Shown piece by piece: positions 1,659 to 20,295 of a stretch of 21,729 nt of DNA (position 1 is its first letter; every line of letters begins with the position of its first letter). Source of the stretch: a virus; the IMG/VR virus record IMGVR_UViG_3300009702_000092, positions 1 to 21,729 of that record, one strand, 5' to 3'. The notes under the pieces are model-generated. The model was given only the letters and a program-made list of their open reading frames with translations, did not search any database and was not told the origin of the DNA. The position numbers were made by a program, and so were the translations under genes.

Positions 1659-4049
1659 ATGCCACTGACCGACCCCCCGGGGATCTTCTTTCGGGAACTG
1701 GACTTTACGCACGCGGCGAGGACCGTGGGGGAGACGCTGCTCCTGTGCGCGGGTGGGGCGACAAAGGGCGCGATCAATACACCCACGCTGGTAAACAGTG
1801 AGGCCGAGTTGGTCGATGCGTTCGGCCCGCCGATCCTGAGCGACTACGCGATCCAGTCGGCCGTGCAATACCTCCGCCGCGGGCGGTCGTGCGTGTTTCT
1901 GCGGCTGGCCGGGGCGAGCGTGGAAACAGCATCGGTCGGCGTGGTCGGGCTGACCGGCGGGTCGGTTGCGGCGGCGGGTGTGGGGAGTGTGGAGTTCACT
2001 GGGAACCCGTCTGAGGCCACGGCGGCGGACTTCATCGACATCAGCGACGGCGTTATCTCGGTGTCGTTCGAGTTCGACAGCGACTCGTCTGTAACAGCCG
2101 GGAAGGTTCCGGTAACGATCGGTGCGGACGCGTCGGCGACGATGGCGAACTTCATCGCGGCCGTCAATGCGAGCATCCTCGACGTAACAGCCCTAGCGGC
2201 TGTGGGGGCTGCGAACCCGAAGGCTACGATTACACACAACCGGACGGGTGCCCGTGCTGGCGTATCAATCGCGGATACGGAGGGTGGGGCGCGGACCAAC
2301 ATTACCGTCGTGGACTTCGCCGGGGGGGCGGCACCCGGCCCGTCTACGGGGCTGATCCAGTTCCTTTCCGGGAGTAACGCTGCCGATGGCGACCTCGTTA
2401 CGATCAGCGACGACGGCGGGGCTACGACCACGGTATTCGAGTTCGACACCGGCGACGGTGTTGCGGCTCCGAACGTCGCGGTGGCCGTCGGGGGGACCGC
2501 CGCGATCAGCGCCACGAACCTGCGGACGGCGATCAACAACTCAAGCCTCGGGATCGTCGCTACCGACGCGCTCGGGGACGCTACTACACCGCCGAAGCCG
2601 TCCGTATTCCTGCTTGCGATTGCGGGCGGGTCCGCGAGCAGCATCACCGCGACGACGATCGTAGCGGGTGCAACTACGGCAACCGTTGCGGGTGAGGACG
2701 CGACCGCCCCGTCAACTCAGGCGTCCGTAATGACGGTCGGCGCATCGACCCCGGGGACGTGGGGGAACGGCGTGGACGTGCAGTTGCAGGCCACAACCGT
2801 ACCCGGCGCGCCGTCGGGCAACTTCGACCTGCTCGTCCTTGCGGCGCGCGACCCGACCCTGCCGACGATCAAGTCCGTCGTGGAGCGGTATAACAACCTG
2901 TCCCTCGACTCCACCGACTCCCGGTTTGTAACGGACGTGGTGGCGGGAAAGACGAGTGAGAACGCGGTCGCCAGCAAGTTCATCGTGATCGAGTCGGTTG
3001 CTGGCGGTTCGAGCGTATCGCCAGCGACGTACACGCTCGGCACCGGGAACGGCCGCGTCGGCCACGACGGGATCGTCCACAATGCGGCAACGGGGAAGGA
3101 CGGGCTGTTCGACGCCGCGGGGGCCGTGATCCCGGCGGCCTACATTGGTGTGGAGGGCGGGGCGGCACCGACGGGACTGAAGGCCGCGAGGGACACCGAG
3201 CGGGTAGTGTTCAACATCGCCGCTGTCCCCGGCGTGTCCCACACGCAGATCATCGACGAGATGATCGACCTCGCAACGAGTCGGGGGGACTCTATCGCGC
3301 TGGTCGATCCCCCGCTGGCCCTTACGGTGGATCAGGTGATCGACTGGCACAACGGCGTCTTGACCGGCGTGCCCGGCGTGCCCAACCCGCCGAACAAGAG
3401 GCTGGACAGCAGTTTCGCCACCGTGAACTACTCGTGGGTGAAGGTACACGACTCGTACAACAAGGTGGACATCTTTATCCCACCGAGCGGCCTGGTGGCC
3501 GGGCTCATGGCGCGTACCGACGTGATCGCCCGCCCGTGGTTCCCGTCCGCCGGGCATACCCGTGGGCGGTTGAGCGTACTCGCGGTTGAGACGAGCCCGA
3601 GCGCTGCCGAGCGGACGAGGATGCTCCGCAACGGGAACAGCGTCAATCCGATCGTGGACTTTCAGGGTTCGGGGCCGACGCTGTTCGGCAGCCAGACCCT
3701 CCTGCGGCGGGACTCCATCCTGCAACAGGTCCACGTCCGGCGGCTGCTCATCTTCGCCCGGGCGGCCATCCGCACGAGCGTCAAGTTCCTCCTGTGGGAG
3801 CCGAACGACGACGTGACCCGTCGCCGGTTTGTCAAGCGGGTCGGTGCGATCTTGGAGAGCATCAAGGGGGGCCGCGGGCTTGAGGACTTCGCGGTGATCG
3901 CGGACAAGTCCGTGAATACGCCCGATGTCATCAACGAGCGGCGGCTGGTCGGGAAGGTGCTCCTCAAGCCGTTCAACGCCGTCGAGCGGATCGAAATCGA
4001 CTTCGCGCTGTTCGATCAGGGGGCCGATTTCAACGAGCGGGTGGTCTAG
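1659..4049 (+). CDS. Tail sheath protein with a tandem inserted domain
   Basis: This 796-residue protein polymerises around the tail tube and contracts to drive the tube into the host. The C-terminal third is typical of phage sheath proteins: ARPWFPSAGHTRG, LRRDSILQQVHVRRLLIFARAAIR, then FVKRVGAILESIKGGRGLEDF and a final beta region (VGKVLLKPFNAVERIEIDFALF) used in inter-subunit strand exchange. The N-terminus (PGIFFRELDFTHAART) and the GTWGNGVDVQL segment near residue 365 are also sheath-like. At about 800 residues it is well above the 400-650 common for the family. The excess is two tandem beta-rich modules at residues 109-225 and 231-347, lying between the RLAGAS strand and GTWGN. The start is ATG 1659, with GAGG about eight bases upstream overlapping the previous stop. 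It is followed by a hairpin and then the tube gene. The identification is confident. Confidence 0.95.
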   Translation: MPLTDPPGIFFRELDFTHAARTVGETLLLCAGGATKGAINTPTLVNSEAELVDAFGPPILSDYAIQSAVQYLRRGRSCVFLRLAGASVETASVGVVGLTGGSVAAAGVGSVEFTGNPSEATAADFIDISDGVISVSFEFDSDSSVTAGKVPVTIGADASATMANFIAAVNASILDVTALAAVGAANPKATITHNRTGARAGVSIADTEGGARTNITVVDFAGGAAPGPSTGLIQFLSGSNAADGDLVTISDDGGATTTVFEFDTGDGVAAPNVAVAVGGTAAISATNLRTAINNSSLGIVATDALGDATTPPKPSVFLLAIAGGSASSITATTIVAGATTATVAGEDATAPSTQASVMTVGASTPGTWGNGVDVQLQATTVPGAPSGNFDLLVLAARDPTLPTIKSVVERYNNLSLDSTDSRFVTDVVAGKTSENAVASKFIVIESVAGGSSVSPATYTLGTGNGRVGHDGIVHNAATGKDGLFDAAGAVIPAAYIGVEGGAAPTGLKAARDTERVVFNIAAVPGVSHTQIIDEMIDLATSRGDSIALVDPPLALTVDQVIDWHNGVLTGVPGVPNPPNKRLDSSFATVNYSWVKVHDSYNKVDIFIPPSGLVAGLMARTDVIARPWFPSAGHTRGRLSVLAVETSPSAAERTRMLRNGNSVNPIVDFQGSGPTLFGSQTLLRRDSILQQVHVRRLLIFARAAIRTSVKFLLWEPNDDVTRRRFVKRVGAILESIKGGRGLEDFAVIADKSVNTPDVINERRLVGKVLLKPFNAVERIEIDFALFDQGADFNERVV
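1983..2333 (+). repeat. Inserted beta-module, sheath copy 1
   Basis: Sheath residues 109-225. It starts GSVEFTGNPSEA, then has DFIDISDG, an FEFDSDS strand, KVPVTIGADAS, a helix ATMANFIAAVNAS, and a final strand region ending VVDFAGGAA. Read alongside the second copy, it shares the order G-x-hydrophobic-x-F ... D-hydrophobic-x-I-S-D ... FEFD ... V-x-V-x-x-G ... helix N-F/L-x-x-A-hydrophobic-N. Confidence 0.7.
2349..2699 (+). repeat. Inserted beta-module, sheath copy 2
   Basis: Sheath residues 231-347. It starts GLIQFLSGSNAADGDLVTISD, then VFEFDTGDG, NVAVAVGGTAA, the helix SATNLRTAINNS, and ends near TVAGED. The landmarks match copy 1 in the same order and with similar spacing, so the sheath carries a tandem duplication. 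The copies are diverged at protein level, so the duplication is not recent. Confidence 0.7.
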
Positions 4050-4754: not shown

Positions 4755-5573
4755 ATGACCGACACCGGCACAGACAGCGCCCTTGATTACAAGTCCGTCA
4801 AGTTGCCATCCCGTGGGGTTTTCTACGGGGGCGCACTCCCCGACGGGGGTGTCGAGGTCCGCCCGCTGACCGTCGATGAGGAGTCCCTCCTGTTCGCTTC
4901 CGGGGGGGACGCGACCGAGAAGGTCCACCGGATCATCCGGCAGTGCGTCCGGTTCCCGGACGGGTTCAGGATCTCGGACCTGCTGCTTACCGACCGCATG
5001 GCAATCATGCTGTACCTGCGGGTTCTGTCCTACGGGCCGTCGTACAACTTCCGGTGGAGGTGCCCGTATTGCAATGCGGCGAACGTCTCCGAGGTCAACC
5101 TTGCGGACGACCTCAAGGACACCACCCCCGAGGACGTCGAGGCTACCGTTCGCCGCAGGTACAGCGTGCCCGATTTCCGTGTTGACGAGCCGCTCGACGT
5201 TGCGCTCCCCTCCGGCAAGTCGCTGTCGATCCGGTTCCTGCGTGTATCCGACGACAGGACTATCCAGCAGCGGGTGAGGCAGGGCCGGAGCAAGGGGGGC
5301 GCGGGCGGGCTGGAATACGTCCTTACGATCGCCCTGTCCGTAGTCTCTATCGGTGGGCGGGAGGACTTGCGGGTCACCGAGCGGGAGGAGTGGGTGCGCC
5401 GGTTGTCCGCCCGGGACGGTATGTACCTTCGCAACTTCCGCGACGATGCCGAGACGGGCATCGACACGACCGTACACCCGACGTGCTCGTCTTGTAACGG
5501 TGACGCGGACTTCCCGCTCCCGCTGGACGCGGAGTTTTTTCGTCCAACCGCCGTACCGGAGGGAGGATCTTGA
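4755..5573 (+). CDS. T4 gp26-like baseplate/tail assembly protein
   Basis: This 272-residue protein resembles the T4 baseplate hub gp26 family: the N-terminal KLPSRGVFYGGALPDGGVEVRPLTVDEESLL, then CVRFPDG, DLLLTDRMAIMLYLRVLSYGPSYNFRWRCPYC. It carries CxxC at C103/C106 and a second CxxC at C244/C247, which could form a zinc site. In contractile phages these genes often sit just before the tape measure gene, where lambda-like phages carry tail assembly chaperones. A baseplate-hub or assembly-chaperone role is therefore inferred. The start at 4755 has GGAG at 4743-4746. The 3' end overlaps an open +1 frame that continues to 5760, and a TTTTTT run occurs at 5535-5540 (see the next entry). Confidence 0.75.
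   Translation: MTDTGTDSALDYKSVKLPSRGVFYGGALPDGGVEVRPLTVDEESLLFASGGDATEKVHRIIRQCVRFPDGFRISDLLLTDRMAIMLYLRVLSYGPSYNFRWRCPYCNAANVSEVNLADDLKDTTPEDVEATVRRRYSVPDFRVDEPLDVALPSGKSLSIRFLRVSDDRTIQQRVRQGRSKGGAGGLEYVLTIALSVVSIGGREDLRVTEREEWVRRLSARDGMYLRNFRDDAETGIDTTVHPTCSSCNGDADFPLPLDAEFFRPTAVPEGGS
5535..5540 (+). other. Candidate ribosomal frameshift site (T6)
   Basis: In the gp26-like frame the codons read GAG TTT TTT CGT. A phenylalanine tRNA on the second TTT could slip +1 onto TTC and continue GTC CAA CCG, entering the frame that stays open to 5760. A -2 slip on the same run also reaches that frame. Supporting this, the +1 frame has no ATG, GTG, TTG or CTG between this run and 5635. It is untested. 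Confidence 0.35.
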
Positions 5574-13866: not shown

Positions 13867-13881
13867 ATGGACGGCGGACGA

Positions 13882-16086
13882 ATGACGACGTGTAAGAGGA
13901 TCACGACCCAGCCGCCCCGGATCAAGTTTACCGGGAGGGACTTTACGACCATCGTAGCCGAGTTGGAGGAGTACGTCCGGCTTACGCGTCCCCAAGAGTG
14001 GTCCGACTTCTTCCGGGCCAACCTGGGGCAAACGCTGATTGAGGCGGTCGCCCTACAGGGCGACATGCTCGCGTACGGGCAGGACTCCGTTGCCAGCGAG
14101 TTGTTCCTTCACACAATGCGCCGCCGGGAGTCCGCCGTCCGGTTCGCCAAGTCGATCGGCTACCCGATCCGGGCCGCGACGGCGGCGGAGGTGACGGTTG
14201 ACGCCGTTGCGATCCCCCTGACCGTGACCGCGAAGGGCGGCCTTATCCCGGCTGGTACGTCGCTCAGCGGCCCCACCGGGGTAGAGTACGAGTCTAAGAA
14301 GGACGTCTACGTCCCCCCGGGGTCTACCGCGTTCGCCCTGACGCTGACCGAGGGGAAGGAGCAGACCGACCAGTTCACGGGCAACGGGCAGCCCGACCAG
14401 ACGTTCACGACCGAGCGGGCCGTTGTAGAAGACGGGTCGTGGTCCGTGTTCGTCGGGGCTGTAATAGACGACAACAAGTGGGAGCAGGTTGATACGCTCA
14501 CGCTCGCAAAGTCCAAGAGGGTCTACGAGGCGACGTTCACGGGCGACGGCCGGTTGCAGATCAAGTTCGGGGGTAGGACCGCCGCCGTCGGGGCCGTACT
14601 CCCCGAGTCCCCGACCGGGACGATTACCGTCAAGTACCGGACTACGAGGGGGGCGGAGGGGAACGCCCCGCTCCTGTCTGTCAGGGGGGGAGTCGGCGTT
14701 GAGGTGGGTGTGGTACTCAGCGGCGACGGGCTCCCGATTCCCGGGAGCGGCGACGGGACGATCGAGACGGTCCAGTTTGAGAACTCCAACGCTGTCGCTA
14801 CGGGCGGGCAGGACGGGGAGACGCTGGATGAGATGCGGAGGAACATCCCAGCGTTCATCCGGAGCGTGGACAAGTTTGTTACGCGGACCGACTACGACCC
14901 CAACGTCGAGCGGTCCCCGGGGGTGGGGGTGGCGCTCGCGTTCTCGGAGCCTTACGTCTCGTCCTTCCTGGCGAACCACGTCAAGGTCCACGTCTGGGCG
15001 TCCGAGGACGTGACGTTTACGTCCGAGACGCCGGGGGGGTCGATCAATCCGATCAACTCCACCGCCGAGTACCGCCGGTACTCGCAGTTCCCCGCGAGCA
15101 GTATCAACGACCTCCGGGGCTTCATGTTCCCCCGCTCGATGGTTTCTGTGAACAACGTAACCATCCGGCCGACGATAACGTGGGTGGACCTCTACTTCGA
15201 CAGGGTGACGTTTGACCCGTCGGCGGTGAGGGAAACCGTCCACGCCGCCGTCACGAAGGCGGTGGTGGAACTGTTCGAGTGCTCGTCCGGCCTTGCGATT
15301 CAGGTATCGGACGTTTACGACGCGGTTGAGGGTGCGGATGGGGTGGACCGCCTCTACATCGAGCGGATCGTCGTAGAGACGCAGAGGGTTGGGGCTATCA
15401 AGTTCGGCGGCGGCGTAGCCGGGGAGTCGGGGTCAACCCAGCCGGTTGACGGGGATACGGTCGCGCTCGCCGATAGCCGGACCACGGCGCCCAAGGTATT
15501 CGAGTTCGACGACGACTCATCCGTAGCCCCCGGGAACATCGCCGTGGCGATCGGCGCGACCGTGCGGGATACCGTGCTCAACTTTCAGACGGCGGTTGAG
15601 GCCGCCCTGAATATCCGGGTCGTGGTGGACATCGCGGCCCCGTGGGTCGCGCTGGACTACCCGGAGGGCGAGGGCGACCTGTCGTCGTTTGTGGCCGTGT
15701 CGGGTACGGGTATCTCCCTGCTCAACGCCTTCTCGGTAGAGAGGCTGACCGTCCGCGAGGACCACCGGCGGGACCAGAATCCGATCAGCGACCCGTACCC
15801 CCCCGGCTCGCCGCCGAACGACCCGGCGAACTACGACCCGCCGGATACGCTTACGGCGGGCGGGGGCCTGAGCCCCGGGTGGCAGGACGGTGGGATCCTT
15901 CCCTACCGGCGTATCGAGGACGTGCGAACAATGGTCCGCCCCGCGATCCGGCGGTACTATGATGAGACGTTCCTCTACAACAACGAGATCCGCTACGACT
16001 CGACGGCGGACCTCAACGCGAGCGTGACCGCTATCAACCTTCGCCGGTTGGTATTCGACTTGGAACCGAAGTCTGTTGGGAGATGA
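13882..16086 (+). CDS. Baseplate wedge protein (gp6/gpJ-like)
   Basis: This 734-residue protein forms the ring-forming wedge that drives baseplate expansion and triggers contraction. The N-terminus is typical: RIKFTGRDFTTIVAELEEYVR, LGQTLIEAVALQGDMLAYGQDSVASELFLHTMRRRESAVRFAKSIGYPIR. A beta insertion (about residues 160-265) has the family pattern ending LQIKFGGRTAAVGAVLPESPTGTITVKYRTTRGAEGNAP. The core follows: NAVATGGQDGETLDEMRRNIPAFIRSVDKFVTRTDYD. Late in the protein (about residues 514-623) is a further inserted beta-module related to those in the sheath. ATG 13882 is chosen over ATG 13867 because the latter overlaps the palindrome and lacks a ribosome site, while 13882 has a weak GGCGGA. 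The C-terminus is RLVFDLEPKSVGR. The identification is confident. Confidence 0.92.
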   Translation: MTTCKRITTQPPRIKFTGRDFTTIVAELEEYVRLTRPQEWSDFFRANLGQTLIEAVALQGDMLAYGQDSVASELFLHTMRRRESAVRFAKSIGYPIRAATAAEVTVDAVAIPLTVTAKGGLIPAGTSLSGPTGVEYESKKDVYVPPGSTAFALTLTEGKEQTDQFTGNGQPDQTFTTERAVVEDGSWSVFVGAVIDDNKWEQVDTLTLAKSKRVYEATFTGDGRLQIKFGGRTAAVGAVLPESPTGTITVKYRTTRGAEGNAPLLSVRGGVGVEVGVVLSGDGLPIPGSGDGTIETVQFENSNAVATGGQDGETLDEMRRNIPAFIRSVDKFVTRTDYDPNVERSPGVGVALAFSEPYVSSFLANHVKVHVWASEDVTFTSETPGGSINPINSTAEYRRYSQFPASSINDLRGFMFPRSMVSVNNVTIRPTITWVDLYFDRVTFDPSAVRETVHAAVTKAVVELFECSSGLAIQVSDVYDAVEGADGVDRLYIERIVVETQRVGAIKFGGGVAGESGSTQPVDGDTVALADSRTTAPKVFEFDDDSSVAPGNIAVAIGATVRDTVLNFQTAVEAALNIRVVVDIAAPWVALDYPEGEGDLSSFVAVSGTGISLLNAFSVERLTVREDHRRDQNPISDPYPPGSPPNDPANYDPPDTLTAGGGLSPGWQDGGILPYRRIEDVRTMVRPAIRRYYDETFLYNNEIRYDSTADLNASVTAINLRRLVFDLEPKSVGR
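15421..15750 (+). repeat. Inserted beta-module, wedge (J) copy
   Basis: J residues about 514-623: PVDGDTVALADS, then KVFEFDDDSSVAPGNIAVAIGATV, the helix DTVLNFQTAVEAALNIRVVVD, and a final strand region to LLNAFSVERL. The FEFD-D/S-S-V-A-x-G-N/K-hydrophobic-x-V-x-I-G run is strikingly like sheath copy 1 (FEFDSDSSVTAGKVPVTIG). The start is less like the sheath copies than the centre is. Confidence 0.6.
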
Positions 16087-16089
16087 GCA

Positions 16090-16668
16090 ATGGCAGTAGC
16101 ATCGCTGACCCTTCTCGGTAAGGAAATCGCCCTCATCGGCGGGTACTTCGATTCTGCCAGTAGCGACCCCCCGATTGCTGCGCCGGGTGAGTTCTCCGGC
16201 ACCTCGATCAACGTGGGGCAGGAGCCATCGGGGAGTCCCCCGGCGAGGTTCAAGGCCGGGGGGATCCCGTTCTTCGGCACGAGGTTGCGGCTGTACGAGT
16301 CGATGGCCCTGACGAGTCCGACGGCGATTTCGACGTTTGTAGAGTCGAGTGGCCCGGGGTACCCGGGGCCCGTATCGCTTGCGATGGGTACCGGGACTGG
16401 GACAACGGGCGATCAGTTCACGGGCGGCGACTGGCAGTTGAAGTTTGGCGCAGCGGACGGGAGTACCACGAAGGACCGCAAGAAACTCCTCATCGCGCAG
16501 AAGTCGTGGCTAGCCACCGGCGATACGTTCGACGTACTGGGAGCGTACCTGACCAACGCGGTGGGAGATCTCGTGATCGCGTGGTGGAGCAGGACCAGTC
16601 CGGTCACGATTGCCGCTGGTGATACGTTTACGGCGGACAACCTCGAAATCGCACTGACGATCCCGTGA
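16090..16668 (+). CDS. Fibre-associated structural protein (C-terminal strand motif)
   Basis: This 192-residue protein starts at ATG 16090, three bases after the J stop, with GGGAGA (16078-16083) as ribosome site. The N-terminus begins with a strand pair (SLTLLGKEIALIGGYFDSASSDPP), the middle is glycine/proline-rich, and the end DVLGAYLTNAVGDLVIAWWSRTSPVTIAAGDTFTADNLEIALTIP resembles the last strands of small phage decoration or fibre-adaptor proteins (G-x-x-hydrophobic-T ... P-x-T-hydrophobic-A-x-GDT). It is flanked by J and another beta-rich protein, so a wedge-to-fibre adaptor is plausible. I cannot name the family with confidence. Confidence 0.7.
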   Translation: MAVASLTLLGKEIALIGGYFDSASSDPPIAAPGEFSGTSINVGQEPSGSPPARFKAGGIPFFGTRLRLYESMALTSPTAISTFVESSGPGYPGPVSLAMGTGTGTTGDQFTGGDWQLKFGAADGSTTKDRKKLLIAQKSWLATGDTFDVLGAYLTNAVGDLVIAWWSRTSPVTIAAGDTFTADNLEIALTIP

Positions 16669-16689
16669 TCCGCAGGGAGTAAGCAGCCC

Positions 16690-17325
16690 ATGTCGCTCAT
16701 TCCGCTCCGTAAGCCGTCGGCCCCGACGAATACCGACTTGACGAATGGTACGGACCTCTTCAGCCAAGTGGTGAGCCTTGAGGACTCGATGGTCGTGGTA
16801 GACGTTGAGGTGGGGGACGGGGTAACGCAACTCGCGGCGGCCGCAGCCTACAAGTTGGACCTACGGGTTACCATCAACGGGAACGTCGTCGTCCCGGAGT
16901 TCTCCGTGACGGTCGATACGACTACTGCGGCGCTCCAGCGGGTGAGGCTCCGAACCGATCCCATCCCCATCAACGACGGGGACTTGGTCGTGGCCAACCT
17001 GAAGGGGGACCAAGCGGCGCAGACCTCGATCCCCGTCCTCGCGTCGCTCTGGGCCATCCCCGCCAGCAGGCAGATCGTGGGGACCGTAAGCGGGACTCCC
17101 GCGACGAACAAGTTTCAGGCGACCCTTTCCGGCTTCGCGGCGGCCCCGTCGAGCGCGGGCTACTTCAACGGGCGTGTGATAGAGTTCGTCAAGTCGGCTC
17201 AGGGGCTGGTCGGGCAGTCCCGGCTGATTGTCGGGTACATCAGCAACGCGGGTACCGCCGAGTTCAACGTGTTGGACTTCTCTACCGCACCCGCTTCGGG
17301 CGACGTATTCGTAATCAAACTTTGA
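16690..17325 (+). CDS. Beta-rich tail structural protein
   Basis: This 211-residue protein starts at ATG 16690, with AGGGAG (16674-16679) about ten bases upstream. The first half is strands (SMVVVDVEVGDGVTQL, YKLDLRVTINGNVVVPEFSVTVDT). The second half, YFNGRVIEFVKSAQGLVGQSRLIVGYISNAGTAEFNVLDFSTAPASGDVFVIKL, follows a pattern seen in many phage tail and fibre proteins: Y-x-G-x-hydrophobic-x-F, G-x-x-R-x-I-x-x-Y, P-x-x-GD-x-F-x-I. It lies between J and I genes together with the previous protein, suggesting a fibre-docking or decoration role. No enzymatic motif is visible. Confidence 0.7.
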   Translation: MSLIPLRKPSAPTNTDLTNGTDLFSQVVSLEDSMVVVDVEVGDGVTQLAAAAAYKLDLRVTINGNVVVPEFSVTVDTTTAALQRVRLRTDPIPINDGDLVVANLKGDQAAQTSIPVLASLWAIPASRQIVGTVSGTPATNKFQATLSGFAAAPSSAGYFNGRVIEFVKSAQGLVGQSRLIVGYISNAGTAEFNVLDFSTAPASGDVFVIKL

Positions 17326-17342
17326 CCCCGGGGGTGTAGCCG

Positions 17343-19274
17343 ATGCAGTCCCGGGTCGCTGGCGCATCGCTCCCAAGGGGCTCGTTCCCGAGCGGTTCGT
17401 TCCCGAGCGGCTCGTTCCCCTCGGTCCCGTTCCCGATCCCCCTGTTCGTGGGCACCCCCACGATCCAGCGCAACTACTCCCTCGGGTGGAGGGACGCGGC
17501 GCTCCGGGCCATGATGGTCCCGGTCCTGCCGGAGTCGGTGCTTACCGGCATTGTGGCTGCGAACGCGGCCCTCTCGTGGACGCACTCCACAACCGGCGGG
17601 GTTACGGGGACTATCGGGGTTGACGCCGTTCTCGGGGGGACGGTGGCGTCCACGATCGGGCTCCCGTCTCCGGCGGTTACGGCCGTTGCCGACCTGTCCG
17701 AGTTCTTTCACTACGACGACCGGATTACGGGGGCCGATGCCGTCGTCACCGTACACGCGGCACTCTCGGCGTCGCCGGTCATCGTGGCCCAGCCGTCGTC
17801 CGACCCGGAGGGGCGGTATGCCACACTCGGCTACCGGCCCGGGATGCCGCTGATCGTGTACGCGATCGGGGTGCTGAGCACCCAAGACATCGCTACGGGC
17901 ACGTTCACCATTCCCATCCCGGCTGGCGCGGCCAGCCCCCCCGACGACGGGATCCAGATCCCGACCGGGGGGAGTTTCCTCGTGGACGAGGCGTTTATAG
18001 ACGCCGTTTCAACGGGGCTGCCGTCTGCGAGAAGCGGCTACATCGGGACCAAGAGCATCACGTCTACCGGGGCTGTGTCGTTTACGTTCCGCCCCCCCGA
18101 CGTGGGGGAGGTCGTGTGGTACGTCTCCCTTACGTTCAGTGGCGCAACTGGGTTTCAGGCCGTGGACATCGTGGAGGGCGACGGGACCGTCAAGACGTAC
18201 CCGATCCCGATCGACCACGGGCTGTACCGATGGGACGGGCACGCCTGGAGGCCGTACCGGAGTGTGCCCGAGCGGACGCTGGACGCCCAGCGGGTGTTTG
18301 AGCACTTGGACCCCGACGGGATCTACTCATACTTCGCAAGGGTGGTCGGCGCGGGCTACCCGATGGTTTCTGCCGACTCGTTCGGTACGCTCGACCTGTT
18401 CGACTCCCGGACCTCCCCCGAGCGGTTCCTTGTCGAGATCGCCCGGCAGTACGGGATGTCGTTTCGGGAGGACGACACTACCGAGGTCAAGCGGCGGCGG
18501 CTCAGCAGCATTGTCGCTACGGCAAGGGCGCACGGGCTGCCGTCGCTGGTGGAGAGTCGGCTTGCCGACCTCGGGTTCTCGGGGTTCGTGAACGAGGTGT
18601 GGGTCAATACGGCCGCTCCGGATAACTGGACCGACCTTACAAGCGCTCCCGCGGCGATACGGGCGGACGCGCGGGCGCGCGGGATCGACGATAGGATCAT
18701 GGCCGAGAGCGGGCAGAAGGGGCAGGACATCCTCGACAAGCCCGTACAGTGGCCCATGCCCCCAGCCCTATTCGCGGACCACCCGGCGGATGGTGGCCCG
18801 CTCTACGTCCTGAGCAGCCGCGTATCCGTCCACGTCAACCACCTCGACGGGAGCCCCATCCCCGACACGCCCGGGCTGGATGCGATCAAGGAGGATGTCG
18901 CGCGGGAACTCATGCTCGACGTTCTCCCGATGCACGTTGACATCCGCTACTTCGTGACGGGGTACCCGTCGGACGATACGGGCGAGACGGCGATCCTGAC
19001 GGACGGCTTCGGGTTCACGGTCAACCAGCAGGGTGTGGGTGGCCCGATCGTTGCAGCCGCCATGCTGTCCGCTACCTTCAGGGTCGATGGGGGGATTGGG
19101 CCTAGCGGGGCCGGTACAATAACTGTGAGCGGCGACCTGTCGGGGGTGGTCCTACAGGGCGACGCTGGCGTCGGGGGTACGATCACTGTGGAGGGGGACG
19201 TACAAGGGTTTGTTGGCCCGCCGCACGATACATTTACACAGTCCCCGCCCCCGGGCGGATTATTCGAGCCCTGA
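17343..19274 (+). CDS. gpI-like tail protein with repeat-bearing ends
   Basis: This 643-residue protein is much longer than P2 gpI (about 180 residues). The gpI-like part lies at about residues 345-420: LDLFDSRTSPERFLVEIARQYGMSFREDDTTEVKRRRLSSIVATARAHGLPSLVESRLADLGFSG, with the usual kR-x-L...H-x-x-G pattern. This protein links the wedge to the fibres. The N-terminus opens with three GSFPS repeats, then a beta-rich region. Two types of short repeat (GTI-x-V-x-x-x-L-x-G-x-V) occur, once at residues 89-101 and twice at the C-terminal end (591-603, 612-624). It begins at ATG 17343 after a short gap containing CCCCGGGG. The next gene starts 14 bases after its stop. Confidence 0.75.
   Translation: MQSRVAGASLPRGSFPSGSFPSGSFPSVPFPIPLFVGTPTIQRNYSLGWRDAALRAMMVPVLPESVLTGIVAANAALSWTHSTTGGVTGTIGVDAVLGGTVASTIGLPSPAVTAVADLSEFFHYDDRITGADAVVTVHAALSASPVIVAQPSSDPEGRYATLGYRPGMPLIVYAIGVLSTQDIATGTFTIPIPAGAASPPDDGIQIPTGGSFLVDEAFIDAVSTGLPSARSGYIGTKSITSTGAVSFTFRPPDVGEVVWYVSLTFSGATGFQAVDIVEGDGTVKTYPIPIDHGLYRWDGHAWRPYRSVPERTLDAQRVFEHLDPDGIYSYFARVVGAGYPMVSADSFGTLDLFDSRTSPERFLVEIARQYGMSFREDDTTEVKRRRLSSIVATARAHGLPSLVESRLADLGFSGFVNEVWVNTAAPDNWTDLTSAPAAIRADARARGIDDRIMAESGQKGQDILDKPVQWPMPPALFADHPADGGPLYVLSSRVSVHVNHLDGSPIPDTPGLDAIKEDVARELMLDVLPMHVDIRYFVTGYPSDDTGETAILTDGFGFTVNQQGVGGPIVAAAMLSATFRVDGGIGPSGAGTITVSGDLSGVVLQGDAGVGGTITVEGDVQGFVGPPHDTFTQSPPPGGLFEP
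17379..17423 (+). repeat. Three tandem 15-bp repeats (GSFPS)
   Basis: Three consecutive 15-bp units (17379-17393, 17394-17408, 17409-17423) encode GSFPS each; the first two differ at one base (GGC/GGT) and the third has CCCTCG at its end. A related VPFP follows. Unit length is a multiple of three, so copy number can change without loss of frame. Confidence 0.85.
19113..19214 (+). repeat. Two C-terminal GTITV beta repeats in gpI-like protein
   Basis: GTITVSGDLSGVV (19113-19151) and GTITVEGDVQGFV (19176-19214) are 63 bases apart. A related unit, GTIGVDAVLGGTV, occurs far upstream at 17607-17645 in the same gene. These are short strand-turn units of a kind that stack into beta structures. Confidence 0.65.
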
Positions 19275-19287
19275 GCGAGACCCCAAG

Positions 19288-20295
19288 GTGGCCCCAGACA
19301 CGATACACCCCCGGTACCAGAGCAACCCCGTACAGTTGGTCGGTCGCTTCCGCGCCACTGCGATCCGGGGGCTGTCGAGCCCCCTCCCGGCGGGCGACAT
19401 CGACCGCGCAATCCGAGAGGGTCGCGGCGGGGTCTGCGCAGACGAGTCGAACCTGATCGTGGACGCGGCGCTGGATTCGGTGACGGCCCTGCTTGCCGGT
19501 GGGTACGGGATGCCGACTGTATATGGGGGGACGATTCAGGACTTCGAGGCGGCCCCCTCCGGCGACACATCTATTTCAAGCCTGTTCATCACCGAGATGC
19601 GCGTTACCGATCCCGCTTCCCCCGCGGAGCCGCTGCCCGGTGATACCACGATAGACGAGACGGGGACGGTCGTTGTATTCCGCAGCCCCGGTACGGGGGC
19701 GGCCCCCGGAACACTTACGCCGACGTACAACCCCGGAGGGGGCCGGGGCGTCCTGCGCCTCTCTGCGGTAATCGGCCCGACGGACTACAACGGGGTCACG
19801 TTCACCGAGGAGGGGCTGTTTACAAACCACAGCACGCCCAAGTTGTTTGCCCGAGCCCTATTCGGGCGGAAGGCCCGAGGGACGATTGAGTTTGTGGGTA
19901 CGCCGTCGGCGGGCGAGACGATCACGATAGACGACGACTCCCCCGGTGCCCCCCCGGGCGGGCACCGGCAGTTGTTCACCTTCGTTGCATCGCCCCCGGA
20001 TCCGCCCGACCCGAATCAGATCGTGATAGGCCCGCTGGGGAGCATGGCCGGGGCGCTTATCAGCGGGATTGAATCGACCATTCTCAACGTAGCGGCCCGG
20101 TCGGTCTTGGGCGGCAATCCCACCGTAGAGGTCATTGCCGACTCGGTGGGCGCCGCGTTCAACCAGCCGATGTCGTCCGCGTCGCCCGCGATCAAACTGA
20201 GTGGGCTGTCGGGTGGGATCGACCCGCCGACCAAGGGGGCCGGGATAGGGATCCAGTTGGACCACACGATCACAGTGATTAGGGGGACTGCATAG
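19288..20295 (+). CDS. Collar/fibre-attachment-type structural protein
   Basis: This 335-residue protein begins at GTG 19288, 13 bases after the gpI-like stop (an upstream in-frame ATG at 19210 lies inside that gene and is rejected). It has the layout of proteins placed just before tail fibres in many contractile phages: NLIVDAALDSVTALLAGG, a beta middle (GVLRLSAVIGPTDYNGVTFTEEGLFTNHSTPKLFARALF) and a final strand (LDHTITVIRGTA). Between LFARALF and that strand an extra segment (about residues 198-311) interrupts the usual arrangement and resembles the sheath and J modules. It ends at TAG 20293-20295, overlapping the fibre GTG. The role is inferred to be fibre docking or collar. Confidence 0.65.
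   Translation: MAPDTIHPRYQSNPVQLVGRFRATAIRGLSSPLPAGDIDRAIREGRGGVCADESNLIVDAALDSVTALLAGGYGMPTVYGGTIQDFEAAPSGDTSISSLFITEMRVTDPASPAEPLPGDTTIDETGTVVVFRSPGTGAAPGTLTPTYNPGGGRGVLRLSAVIGPTDYNGVTFTEEGLFTNHSTPKLFARALFGRKARGTIEFVGTPSAGETITIDDDSPGAPPGGHRQLFTFVASPPDPPDPNQIVIGPLGSMAGALISGIESTILNVAARSVLGGNPTVEVIADSVGAAFNQPMSSASPAIKLSGLSGGIDPPTKGAGIGIQLDHTITVIRGTA
19879..20220 (+). repeat. Inserted beta-module, collar copy
   Basis: Residues about 198-311: GTIEFVGTPSAGETITIDDDS, then LFTFVAS, QIVIGPLGS, the helix AGALISGIESTILNVAARS, and a strand end KLSGLSGG. The opening (G-x-I/V-E-F-x-G-x-P-S) is close to sheath copy 1 (GSVEFTGNPS). FEFD is replaced by FTFV. It is the most diverged of the four. Confidence 0.55.

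Follow-up and report, generated by a model that had tools for sequence, protein, structure and literature searches.

Similar stretches occur in three tail proteins encoded by one phage, and the question that this locus raises is whether a single domain was built into all three and, if so, what it does on the virion. The DNA analysed, hereafter the window, is a stretch of an IMG/VR record with a length of 21,729 bases and 65.6% G+C, whose gene content is that of a tail and baseplate operon. The tail sheath gene (1659..4049, +; 796 aa) belongs to the tail sheath family, as indicated by matches to phrog_23 (2.6e-60) and to Phage_sheath_1C (PF17482, C-terminal domain; 3e-9), and its best isolate relative is the sheath of Bacillus phage SP-15. 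The J-like (gp6-like) baseplate wedge gene (13867..16086, +; 739 aa) was assigned to the wedge family through phrog_219 (baseplate wedge, 9e-30); matches to TIGR02243 (3e-17) and PF04865 (just 0.008) were below cut-off. In all relatives, J is followed by a family of ~140-190 residues, whose window member (16090-16668) had no PHROG match. A Tail_P2_I-like gene (17343..19274, +; Tail_P2_I 8e-4) is without the domain in the window, and the corresponding proteins of the relatives L012 (945 aa) and L050 (475 aa) have one copy each. The gene that we call 'collar' (19210..20295, +), a label that rests on gene position, gave phrog_5417 (6.6e-8), a family without assigned function, as its sole match in the family scans. 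Note that the collar ORF opens with a TTG that falls within the upstream gene. The homologues in L050 and L100 begin near window position 19330, and the true collar start is probably later, near 19288 or 19330.

Copies of the domain, a module of ~115 residues, were detected with a profile made of 39 modules from other genomes only, with zero window sequences, which was searched against the 194 ORFs of the window. The modules from other contigs had been gathered by a fixed DNA pattern first and then by profiles. The profile found two tandem modules in the sheath, S1 (1977..2333, +; aa 107-225; 1.9e-24) and S2 (2343..2702, +; 1.7e-19), one in a position of J that we call slot A (15385..15750, +; aa 507-628; 3.5e-18) and one in the collar protein (19873..20223, +; aa 222-338; 2.9e-8), and the next-best window ORF scored 0.25, with nothing below 3.4 among reversed proteins. 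The earlier note had placed versions of the sheath module in J (15421-15750) and in the collar protein (19879-20220), and the strings that it quoted were found at these places. Pairwise Smith-Waterman z scores were 10.2 for S1 and S2, 8.9 for S1 and J, and 10.1 for S2 and J. The scores of the collar copy were 5.1 with S1, 3.4 with S2 and 3.2 with J, and 1-9 of 1000 shuffles scored as high, so that its membership would be doubtful from pairwise comparison alone. When separate sheath, J and collar profiles were compared by hhalign, they matched end to end with probabilities of 99.8%, 98.5% and 98.6% (E-values are those of single pairs), which goes beyond generic beta content and passes the refuting test that the earlier note had set. 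The J copy is divergent in its final third; of 111 positions, the window-free profile aligns just 9-79 with this copy. At the sequence level, all four segments belong to a single domain family.

S1, S2 and J have the string FEFDxDSSVxxGxxxVxIG in common, and the core motif F31, E32, F33 and V46 is kept at 91-95% across modules. An acidic motif, DGDT..DG....FEFD at S1 positions 13-34, is also strongly kept, with residues D13, D18, D24, E32 and D34 mostly 81-93% conserved; the collar copy is without E32 and D34. This conserved acidic pattern could be a metal site. Scans of the modules against Pfam, PHROG and NCBIfam gave zero matches, indicating that these databases hold no model for the module, and no module had a Pfam match to the Ig-like families Big, fn3 and I-set. 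As tblastn of the modules against isolate phages and plasmids gave no match either, the family was collected from environmental contigs and genomes.

The earlier note had proposed to search related phages for sheath, J and collar genes lacking the module at the same points, and such empty sites were found. In the sheaths of relatives, all modules lie at one place, between '..FLRxA..' and '..TPGTWGN', and their number varies from 0 in SP-15 and 1 in L045 to 2 in the window, L077, L075 and L074 and 3 or more in L004, L013, L052, L061 and L070. J has two slots. Slot A is occupied in all 6 close homologues, and the alignment of a distant module-less J with the window J stops where slot A starts. 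L044, L046 and L050 have a further module in slot B, which lies in a proline-rich linker (HRRDQNP..YPPGS..; 15751..15879, +) and is unoccupied in the window, L091 and L100. In the collar protein, the strand LFARALF (19843..19863, +) stands directly before the insertion point. It is kept in the module-less homologues of L050 and L100, where it is joined directly by the last strand, TKGAGIGIQLDHTITV in the window (20224..20292, +); in L050, 'KLIARTTY' passes directly into 'TKTSALALQFDHTIT'. The module is present at the same insertion point in the window and L012, and the collar copy does lie between LFARALF and the last strand, as the earlier note had it. This presence and absence at equivalent points, together with the detection of all four copies by the window-free profile, supports the view that three tail proteins have the same domain.

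Some module-bearing viral proteins are without a counterpart in the window (L059:7677-9173, L075:8187-10016 and positions 23490-23834 of the G005 record). Those of L059 and L075 had no PHROG match and lie directly after a homologue of window 4755-5573, and the one of L059 precedes the tape measure. In L067 (4427-7621), a viral protein of 1065 residues consists nearly entirely of tandem modules.

AlphaFold predicted S1, from an alignment of 43 modules, as four strands, a helix and four strands (pLDDT 90, pTM 0.87). Prediction of the full collar protein from four sequences was unusable (pLDDT 45), although the strand order agrees. The top Foldseek matches in the PDB were FliD D2-D3 (prob 0.98, E 6e-3, TM ~0.5) and the Mu tail trunk (prob 0.99); the best TM to solved structures was just ~0.5, and all E-values were above 1e-3. 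Ig chains appeared in Foldseek with E above 1 only. Structural matches in BFVD were J-like, major tail and tail tubular proteins. The module profile also matched residues 106-197 of the phage Milano sheath gp20 (E 2.2e-4), and this match falls inside the external sheath extension domain of gp20, residues 91-203 (PMC10811340). A profile of eleven Mu-like sheaths matched the module at Mu residues 103-215 (hhalign 95%, E 3.5e-8; 8-21 bits forward versus at most 5 reversed), whereas the Mu sheath as a single sequence gave 0.4%. Domain III of the Mu sheath is stated to project outward (PMC11915804). S1 and S2 lie between the N-terminal part and the remainder of the sheath (aa 107-348, versus Mu 103-215), and SP-15 has a gap there; the J and collar copies lie in other proteins. 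Judged by profile and position, the window sheath has two copies of what is usually the outer sheath domain, and those in J and the collar protein are members of this family placed elsewhere.

The family also extends to cells. A search whose profile was built from phage modules alone (nominally 100,000 sequences) recovered the module in four FlgE proteins of flagellar hooks (E 1.9e-10 to 7e-18) and in numerous giant proteins of planctomycetes; in one of the latter, it is accompanied by cadherin, dockerin, Big_9 and GEVED domains. The FlgE carriers (L017, L018, L026 and L033) are from Planctomycetota and Alphaproteobacteria and have one copy each, in the outer region. Among L019-L043, the giant planctomycete surface proteins have several to ~20 copies, and those scanned contain cadherin, dockerin and GEVED. 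The cellular carriers are surface structures. The family may tentatively be seen as a general add-on of exposed helical machines, i.e., sheaths, wedges, fibre-base proteins, hooks and giant surface proteins, that has moved between viruses and cells, a view to which we give a little less than even weight.

Several other readings of these similarities have to be weighed. That the segments are unrelated beta-rich domains, alike by composition, is hardly tenable: the weak pairwise scores of the collar copy and sequences rich in G, A, T, S and V would fit it, but the window-free profile with its reversed controls, the full-length profile-profile matches and the L012 collar module at the identical insertion point all speak against it. 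Another reading, in line with the earlier note's suggestion that recombination inside the genome spread the domain, is that one module was recently duplicated into the other genes of this phage. The string shared by S1, S2 and J could be taken that way, as could a within-genome pair in L075, in which sheath S1 and a separate ORF are 52% identical with support of 99/94. However, the window copies are only 16-29% identical in residues and 40-46% in bases over aligned codons. Moreover, a tree of 40 modules, with few starred branches and poor deep support, groups them by protein position, with 8 label changes versus 14.9 shuffled (none of 300 shuffles reached so low a number), whereas it does not group them by phage (30 versus 30.1). 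The window J copy joins the J copies of other phages (95/90); the window collar copy has a branch of 2.6 and its placement is unsafe. Since clustering follows protein position and is not within the genome, recent within-genome spread is not supported, and we consider it very unlikely. The copies are ancient, and each has mostly been passed down in the slot that it occupies from a time before the split of these phages; the module did spread between proteins, for the most part before that split.

It is also conceivable, but improbable, that a readily tolerated domain spread neutrally and selfishly, with no function in the virion. Presence and absence in homologues and the variable copy number would be expected from such spread, yet the copies are open, the core motif is kept as described above despite deep divergence, and the same slots remain filled across phages. 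The main alternative to a coat in contact with the host is structural cement, in which copies on neighbouring sheath subunits, the wedge and the fibre base would be in contact, either steadying the tail in its extended state or linking the baseplate with the first ring of the sheath. We regard this as possible, with roughly one chance in three. Additional sheath domains have already been proposed as stabilisers of sheath discs (PMC9230969), and one domain in the sheath, J and the fibre base would yield self-complementary surfaces. Against cementing, homologous sheaths carry anything between no copy and 3 or more, and close relatives lack the module at the collar site and in J slot B, indicating that no fixed interface is needed; the domain is also found in the unrelated hook and giant surface proteins.

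Taken as a whole, the explanation that we favour, and consider probable, is that the modules are one family, related to the sheath extension domain that points outward, and are accessory units plugged into surface loops of structural proteins. In the sheath, where it is doubled, the module should project from the tail surface; it also lies behind the core of the baseplate wedge J and, in the small collar protein of the fibre-base region, within a hairpin. The repeated copies could act as a sticky coat whose contacts with polymers on the host surface are weak but numerous. We prefer such multivalent contact because copy number varies freely and the cellular carriers are exposed surface structures, but we hold this function itself only provisionally, at somewhat under an even chance; no catalytic or ligand site was identified in the module. 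The exposed accessory role of the module is well supported. The earlier note's proposal of a shared function on the outside of the virion is supported for the sheath, since the homologous Milano domain is the external sheath extension domain (PMC10811340); for the J and collar copies, we infer exposure.

Extra outer sheath domains are well known and are usually taken as sheath-specific or Ig-like. Here, members of one sequence-detectable family serve in three to four different tail proteins within a phage lineage, and the clean empty and filled sites provide a natural knock-out series for the function of the sheath extension domain. Because the family is without a model in Pfam, PHROGs and NCBIfam, a new model would help to annotate numerous proteins of environmental phages, flagellar hooks and planctomycete surfaces.

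Among known systems, the sheath extension domain of Milano (gp20, 8fop; PMC10811340) resembles the module in its profile match and its equivalent place in the sheath, and it is external in the virion. Unlike the module, it is present as one copy, in the sheath, and the match spans just the second half (profile positions 40-98). Domain III of Mu gp39 and the Mu-like sheaths (PHROG 165; 9khy) are alike by the hhalign and Foldseek matches given above, but they have the module's first half in reduced form only, lack the FEFD motif and carry a single copy. The sheath insertion domain of XM1 was compared to FliD D3 by its authors (PMC10457771), and FliD D2-D3 is among the top Foldseek matches of the window module, at a TM of ~0.5; FliD gave no sequence-level match in the PDB search. 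Finally, the accretion of Ig-like or BACON-type domains in tailed phages is similar in that small beta domains are gained and lost in tail structural proteins, whereas the window module gave no Ig-like match and is without a model in Pfam, PHROG and NCBIfam.
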